64,000 bases of DNA from Thauera propionica (GTDB taxonomy: Bacteria; Pseudomonadota; Gammaproteobacteria; Burkholderiales; Rhodocyclaceae). This document shows positions 1 to 8,319 of the stretch, one piece after another. Location of the stretch: contig NZ_NOIH01000002.1 of assembly GCF_002245655.1 (NCBI RefSeq), positions 1-64,000 on the forward strand, given 5' to 3'. The position numbers and the translations under genes are program-made. How positions within the stretch are numbered: position 1 is the stretch's first letter; each line of letters opens with the position of its first letter. The notes below the pieces were generated by a model, which saw only the letters and a program-made list of their open reading frames with translations, made no database searches and had not been told where the DNA came from.

Positions 1-107
1 ACGAACAGCCGGTTGTCTTTGGCCGAACGCCCTCTATCGCCGGGCTTGCCGGGTAGAAGCCCTTCGATTGTCTGCCACTGTTCATCTGTCAACACCATCC
101 GAAGCAT
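1..107 (-). CDS. IS5-family transposase, N-terminal fragment (cut by window edge)
   Basis: The minus-strand reading frame starts at 107 and runs off the window. It begins MLRMVLTDEQW and continues through a GLLPGKPGDRGR segment to DNRLFV. This is the conserved N-terminus of IS5-group DDE transposases (the DUF4096-like region that precedes the catalytic domain). A second in-frame ATG lies three codons downstream and could be the true start. Only about 35 residues are visible, so whether the transposase is intact cannot be judged. Confidence 0.75.
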   Translation of the reverse strand, partial: MLRMVLTDEQWQTIEGLLPGKPGDRGRSAKDNRLF

Positions 108-165
108 CCTGATCTCCGCCCAAAGATCAGGATGTAAACACAAATCAGCTAATGTGAACAGCCCC
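1..165 (-). mobile_element. IS5-family insertion sequence, one end only
   Basis: The left edge of the window holds one end of an insertion sequence whose body continues outside. A transposase start (1-107, minus) is followed by a terminal sequence ending in GGGGCTGTTCACATTAGC when read inward from position 165 on the minus strand, typical of IS5-family ends. The bases just outside (166-168, TAA) fit the TNA target duplication used by several IS5 subgroups. The other end is not visible, so the duplication cannot be confirmed. The element lies about 145 bp upstream of the pilin promoter. Confidence 0.75.
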
Positions 166-309
166 TAACGCGGCCGAGAGAGATGTCGGTTTGTTTTTTT
201 ACTTTTCTCGTTTGTCCACTTCTGACATTCGACGACGCGTTTGTCATGGGTGAACCCTATCGAGTGTCAATCCGCGGCACTCCGTCACGGAAATCGCGGG
301 TTTTCGAGC

Positions 310-325
310 TGGCACGCCCTTTGCG
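310..325 (+). promoter_or_regulatory. Sigma-54 (RpoN) -24/-12 promoter for the pilin gene
   Basis: TGGCACG at 310-316, four bases, then TTGCG at 321-325. The GG and GC elements are spaced as in the RpoN consensus TGGCAC-N5-TTGC. The predicted transcription start is near 336, giving a leader of about 40 nt before the pilin ATG at 376. RpoN plus PilR control of major pilin genes is established in Pseudomonas and Geobacter, which supports the call. A GTGTC element near 264 could be part of an activator site, but this is weak. Confidence 0.85.
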
Positions 326-375: not shown

Positions 376-555
376 ATGAAAAAGATTCAGAAGGGCTTCA
401 CCCTGATCGAACTGATGATCGTCGTGGCGATCATCGGCATCCTGGCCGCCATCGCGATTCCGCAGTTTAACGAGTACCGCGCAAAGGCGAACGACACCTC
501 CGCCGTTGCTGATGCCAAGAACGGTATTACAGCGATCATTTCGTCGCTTCGCTGA
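376..555 (+). CDS. Short type IV pilin (59 aa, PilA-N-like)
   Basis: A prepilin with the leader MKKIQKG followed by the type III signal sequence [20 protein letters not shown]. PilD should cleave after Gly7 and methylate Phe1; Glu5 of the mature chain is present. The mature protein is only about 52 residues: the N-terminal helix, with no room for the beta-sheet head of a normal 140-160 aa pilin. AAGGAG at 362-367 is a well-placed ribosome-binding site, which decides this start over the longer reading frame from 241. It lies directly behind a sigma-54 promoter and 28 bp before an exported six-cysteine protein. The size recalls the Geobacter PilA-N pilin, although only three aromatic residues are present. 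It could instead be a truncated remnant; the intact promoter and ribosome site argue that it is expressed. Confidence 0.85.
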
Positions 556-583
556 TCCACGCCAAGCATATCGGAGATATACG

Positions 584-1024
584 ATGAAGAAAATTTCTGC
601 CCTCCTTTTTGGTCTCCTTATTTCGAGTGCAACTTTCGCCCAAGTCGCCGGCGGCACTTATCAACTCGAAGGCTCGGGCCCTATCACTACTGATCAATGC
701 GGCCTCTTGAACGAGAACGTCACGATTAACCTCACCACAGGTGTGAATGCGGGCGTGGACTGCGACGGGGAGCGTATTGCAATTAGCGCATGCCATACTG
801 CTGGCCGAACCGTTGCACGCCAAGTCGACAGACCGACGCCGGTTGGCTGCGGGGTACCAGACCCGACTACTGGTGAAACTGTTGCATGCACGGGAACTGA
901 ACGAGTAACCGCAACTGGTGCAAGCATGGCGACGGCCACGACCCTTGCCGGTACGGTAACGCCGGAATATCCTGGGGAACTCTGCAGCGCTGCTGCTGCT
1001 GCTGCCACCGCAGCTGAGCAATAA
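584..1024 (+). CDS. Exported six-cysteine protein following the short pilin
   Basis: A 146-residue protein of unrecognised family. MKKISALLFGLLISSATFA is a clear Sec signal peptide, with cleavage before QVAGG. The mature chain holds six cysteines (in DQCG, VDCDG, SACHT, VGCGV, VACTG and ELCSA), which could form three disulfides, and ends in an alanine-rich tail. Thr, Gly and Val richness suggests a beta-rich secreted or surface domain. The start at 584 is preferred because it gives the signal peptide. The gap from the pilin stop is only 28 bp, so co-transcription is likely. I infer a possible role as the missing head-domain partner of the short pilin, by analogy with the split PilA-N/PilA-C pilins of Geobacter. 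No sequence similarity to PilA-C was established. Confidence 0.75.
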   Translation: MKKISALLFGLLISSATFAQVAGGTYQLEGSGPITTDQCGLLNENVTINLTTGVNAGVDCDGERIAISACHTAGRTVARQVDRPTPVGCGVPDPTTGETVACTGTERVTATGASMATATTLAGTVTPEYPGELCSAAAAAATAAEQ

Positions 1025-1040
1025 GACAAGCTCTCACCCT

Positions 1041-1072
1041 AATAGCTATTGACAAGGCATACAATAGCTATT
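1041..1072. repeat. Duplicated palindrome AATAGCTATT
   Basis: The perfect 10-bp palindrome AATAGCTATT occurs at 1041-1050 and again at 1063-1072, 22 bp apart centre to centre, about two helical turns. It lies between the end of the exported-protein gene and the terminator. It could be a protein-binding pair or the remnant of a recombination site; function unknown. Confidence 0.6.
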
Positions 1073-1089
1073 CCATTAAAATTGGAAAT

Positions 1090-1130
1090 AACAGGCCGCA
1101 AAGCATTAAGCTTACGCGGCCTGTTTTTTA
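1090..1130 (+). terminator. Rho-independent terminator of the pilin operon
   Basis: Stem AACAGGCCGC (1090-1099) pairs with GCGGCCTGTT (1116-1125), with an inner AAGC/GCTT helix, and runs into a T tract (1124-1129). It closes the pilin plus exported-protein transcript before the permease gene at 1217. Confidence 0.85.
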
Positions 1131-1216
1131 GTGGAATTTAGTTACTACGTTACAAAGACACCCTCACCCTCACGATCGATCCAGAAAAAATACGAAAACA
1201 TCGTGGATAAAATCTC

Positions 1217-2026
1217 ATGCTATACCAAGCTCATTTCCGCAGTGCATTTCGCTTATGTGCAAGCACAAGATTTTTCCCCACCGTAGCGTGGTTAAGCGCC
1301 TCTTTAATTGTGGCAGCACTAGTTGCTGCACAGTTCAGCGGGCGCCAACCCTCAAGTGTCGCTCTTGATGTTGGCATTTCGGCTATCCGAATTTTGCTAC
1401 CAGTGCTCGCCACTCTTCTAGTTCATGACTTATTGTTTCGAGAGTTCGATCGAAAGCTCTATCTAACGTCTATGACGTACCCACTCCCGAGGCAGGCGTT
1501 TCTCCTGAGTCGAGTTTTCGTTGCCGCCTTACTCCTTTTTAGTTTACTTATTGTTTTAGCCTCTGCTCTGGCCTGGCTTACCAATTGGGTCGGGCATGGC
1601 ATTTCTCAGTCGAAACCGCCGGCACTAGGCCTGCCTTACGTTGTCACGATGGCCTTCATTGCGCTGGATCTTCTGGTCGCGCTCGCCATTGGAACGCTGA
1701 TCGCCGTCACCACAACTACGCCCAGCTTTGTGCTGATCGGCACCATCGGCTTCATGGGGGTGGCTCGCTCCTATTCGGCCATCGTCGCGCTGCTGACGCG
1801 CGACAGCACGTTGGTCGGGAACGCCGACACCTACCAGTCTTCCCTCAGCCTGCTCGGCTACCTGTTGCCCGACCTGGCCGCGCTCGATGTGCGCATGATT
1901 TCGCTCTACGGCGACTGGCAATTCCTGCCCGACGACTGGCCGCTGCGCGTCGTCTCCACGCTGGCTTATGCTGCGGCCCTGTTCGCACTGTCGGTGTGGG
2001 CGCTGAACCGGAAGAAGTTCGCCTGA
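1217..2026 (+). CDS. ABC-2-like transporter permease subunit
   Basis: A 269-residue integral membrane protein with about six hydrophobic segments, for example AWLSASLIVAALVAA, IRILLPVLATLL, FVAALLLFSLLIVLA and YAAALFALSVWAL. It ends with the basic NRKKFA typical of ABC-2 permeases. Its stop overlaps the start of the next gene (TGATG at 2024-2028). The ATPase partner is probably the gene at 3296-4198. Codon use changes sharply inside it: the first 120 or so codons contain seven TTA leucines and many A/T-ending codons; from about 1640 onward codons are GC-ending and TTA is absent. No clear ribosome site precedes the ATG. Its position beside a pilin recalls the Myxococcus PilG/H/I transporter needed for pilus biogenesis; that role is inferred. 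Confidence 0.7.
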   Translation: MLYQAHFRSAFRLCASTRFFPTVAWLSASLIVAALVAAQFSGRQPSSVALDVGISAIRILLPVLATLLVHDLLFREFDRKLYLTSMTYPLPRQAFLLSRVFVAALLLFSLLIVLASALAWLTNWVGHGISQSKPPALGLPYVVTMAFIALDLLVALAIGTLIAVTTTTPSFVLIGTIGFMGVARSYSAIVALLTRDSTLVGNADTYQSSLSLLGYLLPDLAALDVRMISLYGDWQFLPDDWPLRVVSTLAYAAALFALSVWALNRKKFA

Positions 2027-2874
2027 TGAATGCGCGCAACGCATTGCCGCTCGCAATTGCAGCACTGGGATTCGGCCTTTTCGCCGCGATCTGGGCCATG
2101 CGGTCGCCTGCCAGCACCGAGCCGCCACCCGAAGTATTCGACCGCGTGGTCGTCTCGGCCCCGGTACAACTGCTGCTCGCCGGCGGCGACCGCTTTCTGG
2201 CCGCCAACATCGAATCCATCCGCGCCGTTGCGACCACCAGCGACAACCCCGAAGCGGCCGAAGCCAACGCCTCCTTCGCCATCCGTGCGCGTCGCGTGGT
2301 CGCGCAGTTGAACCCCTGCCACGAAGACAACTACTACCAGGGCAACGCCCTGCTGACCTGGGGCGGGGCGGTGGCCGAAGGCAACGACTTGCTCAAGCGC
2401 GCCACCGAGTGCCGCACCTGGGACGAGATCCCACCCTTCTTTTACGGCTTCAACCTGTATTTCTTCCTGCACGACGTCGAAGGTGCTCGCGCCTCGCTGG
2501 AGATTGCCGCCGAACGCGCCACCGACAACGCCGCCGGCTTCCGCAAGTTCGCCATCATGCTCGCAGCAGGCGAACTGAAGGACGACAGCGCCGCGCTCGA
2601 CTTCCTGCAGCAGGAGCGCGCGCAAACCAGCGACTCCAAGTTGCAAGGCATGCTCGACAAGCGCATCGCCCGCCTGCAAGGCCTCATCACCCTGCGCGCT
2701 GCTCAGCAACGCTACGAAGCTCGCTTCGGCCAGCCCCTGACCAACCCGCAGGCGCTGATCGACAGCGGCGAACTTGAGGCCTTCCCCAACGATCCGCTGC
2801 GCATCGGCTACGAATTCGCCGATGGCCGGTTCCGGCTGAAGGAACTCAAGATCGCCGGGCTGGAGCGGCCTTAG
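2026..2874 (+). CDS. Membrane-anchored accessory protein of the ABC module (unknown family)
   Basis: A 282-residue protein whose ATG overlaps the permease stop, implying translational coupling. One N-terminal transmembrane segment (about residues 7-24, PLAIAALGFGLFAAIWAM) anchors a mostly helical, periplasm-facing domain rich in Ala, Leu and Glu, with TPR-like stretches such as FRKFAIMLAAGELKDDSAAL. The C-terminal 70 residues (AAQQRYEARFGQPLTNP to the end) resemble small domains in which a short helix is followed by a pilin-head-like sheet. No catalytic motif is visible. A PilG-like accessory role in a pilin-linked transporter is a guess from the neighbourhood only. Confidence 0.6.
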   Translation: MNARNALPLAIAALGFGLFAAIWAMRSPASTEPPPEVFDRVVVSAPVQLLLAGGDRFLAANIESIRAVATTSDNPEAAEANASFAIRARRVVAQLNPCHEDNYYQGNALLTWGGAVAEGNDLLKRATECRTWDEIPPFFYGFNLYFFLHDVEGARASLEIAAERATDNAAGFRKFAIMLAAGELKDDSAALDFLQQERAQTSDSKLQGMLDKRIARLQGLITLRAAQQRYEARFGQPLTNPQALIDSGELEAFPNDPLRIGYEFADGRFRLKELKIAGLERP

Positions 2875-2940
2875 TCCGCGAGACTTTCCTGTTTTTCGAC
2901 TGCAGCTTACTCTATGGCTCACGCCAATGAGACGGACGCC

Positions 2941-3240
2941 ATGCGACTCAGCACAGAACAACGCCACTTGATCCGCACTGCGGCTGCACGCACACTCGGC
3001 CCGGGTATCGACGTGCGGCTGTTCGGATCTCGAGCGAACGCAGACGCACGAGGTGGGGATATCGACCTGTTCGTAGAACTGGAGGGCGAGGCCGGCGAGG
3101 TGCTCGAACGCGAACTGAAGTTCTACGCAGCCTTGCAGCGTGCGCTGGGTGAGCAACGCATCGACATCGTAGTCCATCGAAAGAACACACCGCTGCGCCC
3201 CATCGACCGCGAAGCCATAGAAAATGGAGAGCCGATTTGA
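2941..3240 (+). CDS. MNT-type nucleotidyltransferase (HEPN/MNT antitoxin-like), orphan
   Basis: A 99-residue protein of the minimal nucleotidyltransferase fold: LFGSRANADARGGDIDLFVE carries the G-S-x10-D-x-D motif that binds metal and nucleotide. The third acidic residue is in RIDIVV. Such proteins usually pair with a HEPN ribonuclease toxin and neutralise it by AMPylation. The chosen start (MRLSTEQRH) matches the family; a longer frame from 2914 is possible. Immediately downstream, overlapping the stop, a TTG-initiated frame (3237-3299) codes for only about 20 residues before a stop, so any partner gene is lost or never existed. It sits between two components of the ABC module, so it looks like an insertion. 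Confidence 0.75.
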   Translation: MRLSTEQRHLIRTAAARTLGPGIDVRLFGSRANADARGGDIDLFVELEGEAGEVLERELKFYAALQRALGEQRIDIVVHRKNTPLRPIDREAIENGEPI

Positions 3241-3295
3241 TCAGCGAACATAGGCGCCTGTGGCAACACGCCATGCAGCAACAACACCGCTATCC

Positions 3296-4198
3296 ATGAC
3301 CCCCGCCCTCGAATTCCATTCCGTCAGCAAGACCTTCCGCTCCCGCGGCAAGACCGTACAGGCGCTGCGCAACGTCAGCTTCGATGTCACCGAAGGCGAG
3401 GTGTTCGGCTTCGTCGGCCCCAATGGTGCGGGCAAGTCCACCACGATCAAGGTGATGCTGGACGTCATCAACGACTACGAGGGCGAGGTGAAGCTGTACG
3501 GCGTGTCGGCGCGCGAGGCGGAGTCGCGCAAGGGCATCGCCTACGTGCCCGAATCGCCCGCGCTGTACGAACAATTCACACCGCTCGAGATCCTGCGCAT
3601 GGCGCTGGACATGTACGGCATCCGCCGGCCGGATGCCGACGCCTGGTGCATGCAGTGGCTGGAACGTTTCTCGGTGGCGCAGAACGCCAGGCGCCGCATC
3701 CGCGAGCTGTCCAAGGGCAACGCGCAGCGCGTGGCGCTGGCCCATGCGCTGGTCGTCAGTCCCCGCCTGCTGGTGCTGGACGAGCCGCTGTCGGGCCTGG
3801 ACCCGGTGGGGCGCAAGGACGTGGTCGACATCCTGGCCGAATACAAGCGCGACGGCGGCGCGATCTTCTTCACCTCGCACGTGCTGCACGACGTCGAGCG
3901 CATCGCCGACCGCTTTGGCTTCATCCATCAGGGCGAACTGCTGACCACCCGCTCGCCGCGCGACCTGGTAAGCGAGCGCGCCGACCGCTTCATCGTGCGC
4001 TACCAGGCCCGTGCCCCGCTGGATGGCGAACACGCGGCGATCCGCGAAGGCGAATACGAACAGGAACTCGACGAAGCCGCCCTGCCAGCCTTCCTGACGC
4101 GGCTTCAGGCCGAAGGCGGCCGGCTGGTGACGGTGAAGCCGGCGGTGTCGCTGGAGACGGTGTTCTTCAAGATTCTGGAAGGGCAGAAGCCGGCTTAA
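3296..4198 (+). CDS. ABC transporter ATP-binding protein (ABC-2/CcmA type)
   Basis: A 300-residue nucleotide-binding subunit. Walker A GPNGAGKST (about residues 41-49), signature LSKGNAQRV, Walker B LLVLDEPLSGLD and the switch histidine in FFTSHVLHDVERI are all intact. The C-terminal 80 residues form the extension typical of ATPases that pair with ABC-2 permeases. The ATG at 3296 is chosen because the alternative GTG at 3260 adds a non-conserved 12-residue tail. It likely energises the permease at 1217-2026 despite the gene inserted between them. Substrate is unknown; linkage to a pilin and resemblance of the layout to Myxococcus pilG/H/I suggest a pilus-related or surface-component export role. 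Confidence 0.85.
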   Translation: MTPALEFHSVSKTFRSRGKTVQALRNVSFDVTEGEVFGFVGPNGAGKSTTIKVMLDVINDYEGEVKLYGVSAREAESRKGIAYVPESPALYEQFTPLEILRMALDMYGIRRPDADAWCMQWLERFSVAQNARRRIRELSKGNAQRVALAHALVVSPRLLVLDEPLSGLDPVGRKDVVDILAEYKRDGGAIFFTSHVLHDVERIADRFGFIHQGELLTTRSPRDLVSERADRFIVRYQARAPLDGEHAAIREGEYEQELDEAALPAFLTRLQAEGGRLVTVKPAVSLETVFFKILEGQKPA

Positions 4199-4234: not shown

Positions 4235-4726
4235 TCAGAGGGCCAGATACCCCACCACGAAATCCGCCACCGCCTCGGGATCGTTGATGTCCAGCGTGGG
4301 CAGGGTGGTGGACACCTCGGTATCCGTCGCCACGGCGACGATGCGGCCGTCCTCCGGGAACAGTAGCGGCTCGGTCACTACGGCGCGATGCACCTCGATC
4401 TTGGGGATTTCGGCGCGCTTGAAGCCTTCGACGAGGACCACGTCGCAGGGACCGAGCTTGTCGAGCAGTTCGTCGAGCGTCGCCTCGGGCGCGCCGCGCA
4501 GCTCTCGCGTGAGCGACCAGCGCTGGCCGGAGCTGACCATGACCTCGCGGCAACCGGCCTGACGGTGGCGCCAGGAGTCCTTGCCGGCGTGGTCGATGTC
4601 GAAGCTGTGGTGCGCGTGCTTGACCAGCGAGACCGCGTAGCCGCGCGCCGTCAGCACGCTGATGACCTGCTCGACCAGCGTCGTCTTGCCACTGCCGGAC
4701 CAGCCGGCAAAACCCATCACTTTCAT
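4235..4726 (-). CDS. mobB: Molybdopterin-guanine dinucleotide biosynthesis adaptor protein MobB
   Basis: A 163-residue P-loop GTPase-like protein: FAGWSGSGKTTLVEQVI is the Walker A region, followed by VKHAHHSFDIDHAGKDS, which is diagnostic for MobB, and VLVEGFKRAEIPKIEV. MobB assists MobA in attaching GMP to molybdopterin to make the guanine dinucleotide form of the cofactor used by nitrate reductases and other DMSO-reductase family enzymes. Its ATG overlaps the stop of the upstream sensor kinase by four bases (ATGA at 4723-4726), so it is translationally coupled to a two-component system, which is unusual for this gene. Confidence 0.92.
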   Translation of the reverse strand: MKVMGFAGWSGSGKTTLVEQVISVLTARGYAVSLVKHAHHSFDIDHAGKDSWRHRQAGCREVMVSSGQRWSLTRELRGAPEATLDELLDKLGPCDVVLVEGFKRAEIPKIEVHRAVVTEPLLFPEDGRIVAVATDTEVSTTLPTLDINDPEAVADFVVGYLAL

Positions 4727-6834
4727 GTTGCGTGTGCGTCCGTTGAGTCGTCGGCGCCCCGGCCGTCCGGGGCGGTGTCGTTGTGATAGACCGGTTCGGC
4801 CAGCAGGCTGACCGTGAAAGCCGTGCCGAGGCCGGGCGTGCTGTCGACCTCGATGCGGCCGCCGTAGCGCTCGACCAGCGTATGGCTGATCGACAGGCCC
4901 AGCCCGGTGCCCTGCCGCTTCTTGGTGGTGAAGAAGGGATCGAAGATGCGCGCCATGTCCTCGCCGCGGATGCCGCTGCCGGTGTCGCGCACGGTGATGC
5001 GCACGCCGCGGGCGTCCGTCGCGGGGTCGCGGTCGGCCGTCGCGAGCGTGAGGGCACCGCCCCCGGGCATGGCCTGCACGGCATTGACGATGAGGTTGAT
5101 CAGCACCTGCTGCAGCTCCTGCAGGTTGATCTGCACCCGCTCGCGCGCCTGCAATTGCTGCACCACCTTCACGTCGGCGCGCGCGAGGTGCTGACGCGTC
5201 AGCACCAGGCAGTCGGCGACCGCGGGATTGACGTCCACCGCCTCGACATAGCCGGCGAACTCGTCTGGCCGCGCAAACTGAAGCAGCTTGGTGACGATGA
5301 CGCGGATGCGATTGACCTGCTCGTGGATCAGCCGCATCTCGTTGGCGACCGGCTGTGCGGCGGCGCCGAGTTCCTCGCGCATCAGGTCCAGGTTGCCCTG
5401 GATGACGGCGGTGGGGTTGCTGATCTCGTGGGCGACGCCGGCCGTCAGTTCGCCGATGGCAGCGAGCTTCTCGCGCATCACCAGCTGGCGTTGCGCGGCG
5501 CGCAGTTCCTCGTTGGCGGCGGCGAGGTCGGCAGTGCGCTCGGCCACCTTGCGGTCGAGCGCGGCGTTGAGCGACTGCAACTCGGCACGCTGCGCAGCCT
5601 GGCTGTCGAGCAGCCGGTCGAACTCGGTCGCCAGTCGCCCGAGCTCGTCGCGGCTGTCGATATGGCCGACGCGCGCCGTGGCGTCGCCGGCTTCGATGCT
5701 GCCGATGGTGGCGTGCATGCGCTCGATCGGGCGGAAGACACTGCGCGCCCAGTGCAGCGTCCACAAGGCGCCGAGCCCGCTGATGATCAGCGAAATCGTT
5801 GCGACCACGGCCAGCGCGAGGTATTTCGCTGCACGGTAGGGCGCCTCCTGGAAGCCGACGTAGAGCATGCCGACGCGTTCGCCCAGGCTGTCGACCACCG
5901 GCTCGTAGCCCGACACGTACCAGTCGTTCACGACGAAGGCGGTCTCCAGCCAGGTGCGCCCATCGCGCAACACATGGTCACGCACGACCTGCGAGGCGCG
6001 CGTGCCGAGCGCGCGCTCGCCCTCGAACAGGCGCACGTTGGTGGCGATGCGCGCATCGTCCAGGAACAGCGTGGCCGTGCCCTTGCCGCCCAGCGGCAGC
6101 GTGCCCTCGCGATAGACGATGGCGTTGATGTTGTCGACGAAATCGAGATTGCCGTTGAGCAGCACGCCGCCCTCGAGCACCGCGACCAGGTTGCCGCTGC
6201 CGTCACGTACCGGCGCCGCCGCATGGATGACCATGCCGCGCTCTTCCACCCTGCGCCCGTCCTGGACCGCGCGCGGGGTGTCAATCAGCGTCAGGCGGGC
6301 CCGCTCACGCAGGGCGGGCGACAGCGCGCCAAGTTCGTCCGCCGGAAACAGGTCGATCACGCTGCTGCTGCCCGAGCGGATCGCCTGCGCCACCACCGGC
6401 CACCCCATGCGGTCGCTGCCCGGGGCGAGGTTGCCGGAAGACTGCAGCACGCGGCCGCTGACGTCGAGCAGGTTGAGGAAATCGAGCGCGTGTTCGGCGC
6501 GGCGCGCCTTCAGTACCGCATCGAGCATCTCGAGCTGCAGAGCCAGCGCCAGTTCGTGCGAATTCGCGAGCCCGGTCACGCGCATGCCGACATTGTCGAT
6601 GACGCGCTCGAAGTAGCCGTGCGCGGTCGACATGTCGCTGCCGACCTTGGACACCATCAGGCGATGGTAATAGGTCTCGCCCCAGTACCAGGTCAGCCCC
6701 ATGATGATCGGGAAGCCGAGCATCAGCGGCGCCAGCACCAGGAACAGCAGCTTGGCGCGCACCGACGCGCGCAGCGCAGCAAGCGGGCTGCGCCAGGTGA
6801 CTGACGGGGACGACGCGGGGCGCGACGGGGTCAT
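4723..6834 (-). CDS. Cache-domain sensor histidine kinase
   Basis: A 703-residue membrane kinase. TM1 lies at about 29-52 and TM2 at about 337-360, enclosing a 290-residue periplasmic Cache-like sensor (with TATLFLDDARIATNV near 253-267). HAMP follows (about 362-415), then a coiled coil, the H-box GVAHEISNPTAV with phospho-accepting His469, the N-box NLIVNAVQAMPGG, G1 RDTGSGI, F-box FDPFFTTK and G2 GTGLGLSIS. It phosphorylates, most likely, the NtrC-type regulator encoded 40 bp upstream in the same direction. Ligand unknown; Cache sensors bind small organic acids or amines in characterised cases. Confidence 0.9.
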   Translation of the reverse strand: MTPSRPASSPSVTWRSPLAALRASVRAKLLFLVLAPLMLGFPIIMGLTWYWGETYYHRLMVSKVGSDMSTAHGYFERVIDNVGMRVTGLANSHELALALQLEMLDAVLKARRAEHALDFLNLLDVSGRVLQSSGNLAPGSDRMGWPVVAQAIRSGSSSVIDLFPADELGALSPALRERARLTLIDTPRAVQDGRRVEERGMVIHAAAPVRDGSGNLVAVLEGGVLLNGNLDFVDNINAIVYREGTLPLGGKGTATLFLDDARIATNVRLFEGERALGTRASQVVRDHVLRDGRTWLETAFVVNDWYVSGYEPVVDSLGERVGMLYVGFQEAPYRAAKYLALAVVATISLIISGLGALWTLHWARSVFRPIERMHATIGSIEAGDATARVGHIDSRDELGRLATEFDRLLDSQAAQRAELQSLNAALDRKVAERTADLAAANEELRAAQRQLVMREKLAAIGELTAGVAHEISNPTAVIQGNLDLMREELGAAAQPVANEMRLIHEQVNRIRVIVTKLLQFARPDEFAGYVEAVDVNPAVADCLVLTRQHLARADVKVVQQLQARERVQINLQELQQVLINLIVNAVQAMPGGGALTLATADRDPATDARGVRITVRDTGSGIRGEDMARIFDPFFTTKKRQGTGLGLSISHTLVERYGGRIEVDSTPGLGTAFTVSLLAEPVYHNDTAPDGRGADDSTDAHAT

Positions 6835-6873
6835 CGGATGCGTGGCATTCGGCAGCGAGCGCAGGCAGCGCCC

Positions 6874-8295
<1,422 letters not shown>

Positions 8296-8319
8296 GTCGT
8301 CTCCTCCGCGGACCATGGA

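Follow-up and report, generated by a model that had tools for sequence, protein, structure and literature searches.

Near the start of a 64,000-nucleotide stretch of Thauera propionica DNA (here, the window), two adjacent genes very probably encode a two-subunit type IVa major pilin with an exchangeable head, linked to an ABC transporter to which we ascribe a presumptive task. Sequence comparison gives good support to the core of this reading, a split pilin made up of a short pilin and a PilA-C-like partner. Across the genomes compared, the short pilin and its partner head appear as a conserved cassette with a permease, an accessory protein, and an ATPase (Table 1). The initial annotation, made from the window alone, had proposed the split pilin with the exported protein as its head; the three further conserved genes behind the pair had been missed in that first reading. 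The window is the opening 64 kb of its contig, and the genome measures 3.9 Mb.

Table 1. Features of the pilin cassette (window coordinates) and other prepilin-like genes of the same genome (C55 and C23)
Feature	Position	Strand	Description
Sigma-54 (-24/-12) promoter-like site	310..325	+	TGGCACGCCCTTTGCG, upstream of pilin
Short prepilin, PilA-N-like	376..555	+	59 aa; leader MKKIQKG/F, otherwise helix alpha-1 only
Mosaic block, approximate	550..1700		Close relatives diverge over the head gene and the first half of the permease gene; flanks conserved
Exported six-Cys partner, PilA-C-like head	584..1024	+	146 aa; top PDB match of partner-family profile, 9egp_B
ABC-2-type permease	1217..2026	+	269 aa; ABC2_membrane_4 E 6.8e-5, below curated cutoff; first half in variable block
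Accessory protein	2026..2874	+	282 aa; start overlaps permease stop (ATGA)
ABC transporter ATPase	3260..4198	+	ABC_tran E 1.6e-29; GTG start as listed, later start possible
T2SS pseudopilins	C55:19-20 kb		GspG (189.8 bits, over cutoff) and GspH-, GspI-, and GspJ-like
Four minor pilins	C55:96-103 kb		GspH/FimT-like, PilV, PilW, and ComP/PilE-like
Two prepilin-like proteins	C23:127-128 kb		234 and 212 aa, of no assigned type

The first gene encodes a type IV prepilin, with a class III leader (G/FTLIE) and an N-methylation motif. It matches Pfam N_methyl PF07963 (E value, 5.3e-11; 42.1 bits against a cutoff of 21.2) and NCBIfam TIGR02532 (41.6 bits; cutoff, 16.3). As had been described, the ORF at 376-555 specifies 59 residues that end after the N-terminal helix, leaving 52 once cleaved and no globular domain. 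Helix alpha-1 of type IVa pilins ends about where this protein stops. In a PDB search, the top three matches are all geopilin domain 1 chains (7tgg, 9egp_A, and 2m7g/6vk9), and the alignments of Geobacter PilA-N chains with the window pilin reach residues 54 to 57. All 59 residues are identical in Thauera linaloolentis (locus L009) at a pS of 0.54, and the window pilin is, by these sequence measures, under strong purifying selection.

The sigma-54 promoter called earlier holds up as a near-consensus site: TGGCACGCCCTTTGCG at 310-325 has a single mismatch to TGGCACGNNNNTTGCW, and none of 200 shuffles of the 200 bp upstream of the window pilin matched the consensus as well. Sites with two or fewer mismatches at the 12 specified positions lie within 200 bp upstream of 42 of the 46 distinct short-pilin genes. 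The contig begins within an apparent transposase gene (positions 1 to 170, minus strand). Since the window aligns with a close relative (G139) from about position 207 onward, the promoter region seems to have been spared. Genes for a Cache/HAMP sensor kinase and a sigma-54 response regulator of the AtoSC/NtrC-like kind occupy 4723-8316 on the minus strand; the two received no PilSR assignment.

The second ORF, at 584-1024, begins 28 bp past the pilin stop and was correctly recognized as a signal-peptide protein with six cysteines; the count is exactly six, and the Sec-type signal sequence was judged by eye. Searches of the partner against Pfam and NCBIfam found no family, and the window partner as a single query against the PDB did not find 9egp_B. 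A profile of 28 of 30 partners (A3) ranked 9egp_B, annotated as "Geopilin domain 2 protein," at the top of 177,635 PDB sequences (E value, 0.0012). The same chain ranked first again with a profile of eight partners including the window's (A1; E value, 0.038) and third with a profile of 17 partners by itself (A2; E value, 0.55). The A1 and A2 profiles match each other in hhalign with a probability of 90 and an E value of 1.6e-6, signal peptides included. With signal peptides removed, the match to 9egp_B scores 18.6 to 18.9 bits (E value, 0.011 to 0.016 at PDB size), a score reached by none of 5,000 shuffles of the mature part (residues 23 to 99 as printed; best, 13.3). The gene adjacent to the pilin thus encodes an exported protein of a family related to PilA-C, although the match is weak. 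With the pilin leading to geopilin domain 1, including 9egp_A, and the partner leading to 9egp_B, each half of the pair leads to one of the two chains of a single known split pilus.

Between the window and T. linaloolentis, the partner is 75% identical (pN, 0.18; pS, 0.79), and the pilin and partner genes both look selected. Six cysteines can be ruled out as a family trait: the number ranges from 1 to 8 over 30 partners (those of the window and L009 among them, signal peptides included), with six in 11 partners and four in another 11. An AlphaFold2 model of the partner reached a mean pLDDT of 36 from an alignment of two sequences only. A tblastn search of plasmids with one partner gave no match, and a search of viral contigs led nowhere.

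To place the pair in the family, we took the best 30 matches to the short pilin in 150 sampled genomes, with both strands read; one of these loci is the window. The other 29 were picked by the short pilin alone, and their pilins measure 57 to 62 aa throughout. An exported protein of 115 to 170 aa stands directly behind the pilin in 28 of them, mostly 10 to 45 bp away, where "exported" denotes a scripted hydrophobicity rule and reading by eye rather than a signal-peptide program; at the last (L023), the contig ends 126 bp downstream. A look for the same gene pair in relatives, suggested at the outset, thus returned it at 28 of these 29 family loci, and this pairing, together with the top PDB match to geopilin domain 2, gives good support to the proposed split pilin. 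The named T. linaloolentis record, found by a contig scan with one partner protein, carries the pair as well, and its pilin and that of G139 have the same 59-aa length and stop as the window's.

The partner has matches in 36 of the 150 family genomes. Among 349 genomes of the order, 20 have one, and 18 of these belong to five families other than the window's; of the 18, 16 were fetched, and in each of them the partner has a short pilin and a permease nearby. Three of 369 class genomes have a match, the window included, and the other two (G640 and G678) show the gene order short pilin, partner, permease, and accessory gene. The pair is present in six families of Burkholderiales. The expectation that a two-part pilin would be unusual in a betaproteobacterium did not survive these counts, and the pilAB genes of Azoarcus BH72 are already in print (PMC3262810; here and below, published work is cited as far as the accessible portions of the papers go).

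Close relatives with a full-length pilin do exist, without the cassette. In a survey of pilin length among the matches listed for 128 family genomes, 92 genomes have a match in a stop-to-stop frame longer than 117 aa, and only one of the 92 (G079) is among the 35 cassette genomes. We read 20 cassette-free genomes with a long frame, mostly those with the shortest frames, and each has at least one pilin of 113 to 177 aa. The T. propionica genome contains 11 N_methyl matches, including the window pilin. The other ten, all read and scanned, include no typical major pilin, although genes in assembly gaps could escape such a search. The intact major pilin elsewhere that the initial annotation had named as a counterindication was accordingly not encountered among these matches, none of which looks like a competing full-length major pilin. 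Seven T2SSE-type ATPases score over the cutoff, so a pilus motor is likely present.

The linkage of the pair to the transporter genes is tight. Within limited flanks, a relative of the permease lies behind 40 of the 46 distinct short-pilin genes; of the remaining six, one locus stops at the end of its contig, and two or more are the leading copy in a tandem arrangement. We extended 37 loci, namely, L009, 20 family loci, and 16 loci of other families chosen for a partner match. All 37 have the permease, 35 have the accessory protein, and 32 have the ATPase, whose family is promiscuous. In three of the five loci without an ATPase (L129, L145, and L148), the stretch may end before the gene, and L143 and L144 have neither accessory protein nor ATPase in the stretch read. 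In the same 150 family genomes, the partner occurs in 36 and the permease in 35, all 35 being common to both (Fisher P value, 2e-33, kinship ignored); the partner-only genome (G146) has a weak partner match (E value, 5e-4). Within the genus, the 10 genomes (of 29) that have the partner are also those that have the permease, and the two genomes with additional copies of one have additional copies of the other. The accessory protein matched no family in Pfam or NCBIfam, and the C-terminal part of its family gives weak PDB matches to GspG-type pseudopilins (E values, 0.17 and 0.3).

Among close relatives, the cassette is a mosaic. DNA identity between the window and G139 is 94% at 351-500, falls to 41 to 69% at 501-1700, and returns to 87 to 99% at 1701-2900; it is low again over the MntA-like gene at 2914-3240 and 95 to 98% over 3351-4100, in the ATPase gene. 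The cassette DNA of G152, from the same genus, equals that of T. linaloolentis, being identical in the five blocks compared. We compared five close cassettes in ten pairs, which are not independent of each other. pS is 0.65 to 0.84 in the partner and permease residues 1 to 75, 0.16 to 0.86 in permease residues 76 to 150, 0.04 to 0.42 in residues 151 to 269, and 0.09 to 0.51 in the accessory protein. Because the contrast also appears at synonymous sites, recombination is its likely cause. When one member of a pair is G150, G156, or G174, which are more distant, the contrast is small or absent. Over 36 loci, the association of partner and permease distances given the accessory protein is 0.10 (100 of 999 permutations as high), and that of partner and accessory distances given the permease is 0.30 (0 of 999 as high). 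Long-range coevolution of head and permease is therefore not supported over these loci, where the permease is not singled out, and only the mosaic among close relatives remains.

A precedent for the gene pair is already known. In Azoarcus olearius BH72, pilA (azo3355) encodes a short prepilin and is cotranscribed with pilB, both genes are crucial for type IV pili, and the start was mapped by primer extension behind a sigma-54 promoter, with PilR described as the main regulator (PMC3262810). Since a separate gene, pilB2, stands beside pilC in this strain (PMC9769520), pilB in pilAB presumably encodes something other than the assembly ATPase. The window shares with pilAB a sigma-54-like site, a short prepilin, and a second gene, with BH72 PilB compared by description only; the accessible portion of the report does not name PilB as a PilA-C-like head or mention linked ABC genes (PMC3262810). 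The second comparison is with PilA-N/PilA-C of Geobacter (GSU1496/GSU1497; PDB 6VK9 and 7TGG, and 9EGP by its geopilin label), where a helix-only pilin likewise has a separate exported partner and both halves are related in sequence to those of the window. Geobacter pili are reported to contain PilA-N and PilA-C in equal parts (PMC12954529) and are called heterodimeric (PMC11046646), although the relevance of such pili for wild-type cells is disputed (PMC9207759). The mature stalk has 52 residues in the window against 61 in Geobacter (PMC11046646), and 9egp_B has one cysteine in the 99 residues seen, within the signal sequence, in contrast to the six of the window partner. Chain A of 9EGP has 69 aa, the length given for Gmet_1399 (PMC5174107).

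The dispute over Geobacter suggests an alternative that we regard as improbable here, in which the short pilin alone polymerizes into a thin helix-only filament and the partner is a periplasmic chaperone or stabilizer outside the fiber, as in the PilA e-pilus model. This model has been defended for Geobacter (PMC9207759), GSU1497 is cited as essential for PilA stabilization (PMC5174107), and a head and a chaperone would look alike in sequence, from which stoichiometry is not readable. However, the equal parts of the two Geobacter proteins were reported from cryo-EM (PMC12954529), and the close cassettes of our data set combine a very variable partner with a near-constant pilin, as would fit an exposed surface and not the chaperone of a constant client. 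It is very improbable that the partner is a pilus-associated adhesin or cargo rather than a structural head. Its export, its variability, its mostly present cysteines, the loci with two partner genes per pilin (L114, L140, L147, and L158), and a solitary copy in G002 (L160) would suit such a role, but alpha-1 would then stay uncovered, the partner is related to geopilin domain 2, and the linked permease is found in 35 of the 36 family genomes with a partner match. There is next to no chance that the pilin is a full-length gene broken by a stop or frameshift, a possibility raised at the outset for which short length alone speaks, given pilins of 57 to 62 aa in all 29 other loci, the same 59 aa and stop in T. 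linaloolentis and G139, strong purifying selection, and a partner with its own start and signal sequence; truncation or a pseudogene is contradicted by this conservation of length and selection.

Under the preferred reading as a two-subunit pilin, the two genes would be cotranscribed in T. propionica. Prepilin peptidase would cut the short pilin, and the mature pilin would wait in the inner membrane while the partner, exported by Sec, acquires up to three disulfides as it folds and then binds alpha-1 along its outward half. The usual type IV pilus machinery would next polymerize the 1:1 heterodimer into a fiber with the partner as its surface. A role for the ABC transporter in bringing in, presenting, or stabilizing the head or the heterodimer is probable, and the permease may be paired with its head through its N-terminal half. 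Recombination that swaps the head together with the matching permease half could give the pilus a different surface, for instance against phages that bind it, while the stalk, the promoter, and the motor interface stay constant.

The window's ABC genes resemble pilG, pilH, and pilI of Myxococcus xanthus in gene content and position. Those genes lie behind pilA, and a deletion from pilA to pilI has been described (PMC5544727). PilGHI is cited as indispensable for the passage of pilin through the inner membrane (PMC3724824), and supporting experimental data are said not to be available (PMC6060248). Unlike the window's short pilin, M. xanthus PilA is full length. A further comparison is with TfpY of Pseudomonas, a pilin accessory protein without which the major pilin is not optimally assembled (PMC11841053); TfpY differs in not being an ABC transporter and in cross-complementing strains with heterologous pilins (PMC11841053). 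It is conceivable, if rather doubtful, that the ABC transporter is a head-specific loader, with the variable N-terminal half of the permease recognizing its cognate head and both being exchanged together to yield a modular pilus of interchangeable surface. Were this true and the transporter homologous to PilGHI, pilA-linked transporters would gain a defined task.

Our literature search, which covered mainly openly available papers, found none on betaproteobacteria in which ABC genes linked to such a pair are described. As far as these searches show, the sequence link to PilA-C, the spread of the pair, its linkage to ABC genes, and the mosaic of head and permease are new. The papers that we found treat split pilins in Geobacter and related bacteria. 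A second group, widespread in Burkholderiales, would offer experimental hosts outside the nanowire debate in which to ask whether a PilA-N-like pilin can form a fiber without its partner, and the tight ABC linkage opens the role of pil-linked ABC transporters to experiment as well. The head-permease mosaic suggests that the pilus surface can change with the motor untouched.

The cassette also varies in its composition. A second short pilin occurs at some family loci (L029, L032, and L035), and in the order's other families a single partner is often preceded by two tandem short pilins (L081 to L087, L134 to L139, and L148), of which the first copy has a different leader. The loci with doubled head genes have both behind one short pilin, and the solitary partner copy at L160 has no short pilin or permease within the 3 kb read. 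A few kilobases precede the permease or accessory gene at some loci inside and outside the family (e.g., L120, L127, L129, and L139). The MntA-like nucleotidyltransferase gene, between the accessory and ATPase genes of the window, lies at the same place in T. linaloolentis and is absent there in G139. At L152, in G079, a 161-aa full-length pilin gene stands divergently beside a partner copy without a recognizable signal sequence, with the permease and accessory genes behind; an ordinary pilin here has apparently taken the place of the split pilin, and the head gene has apparently decayed.
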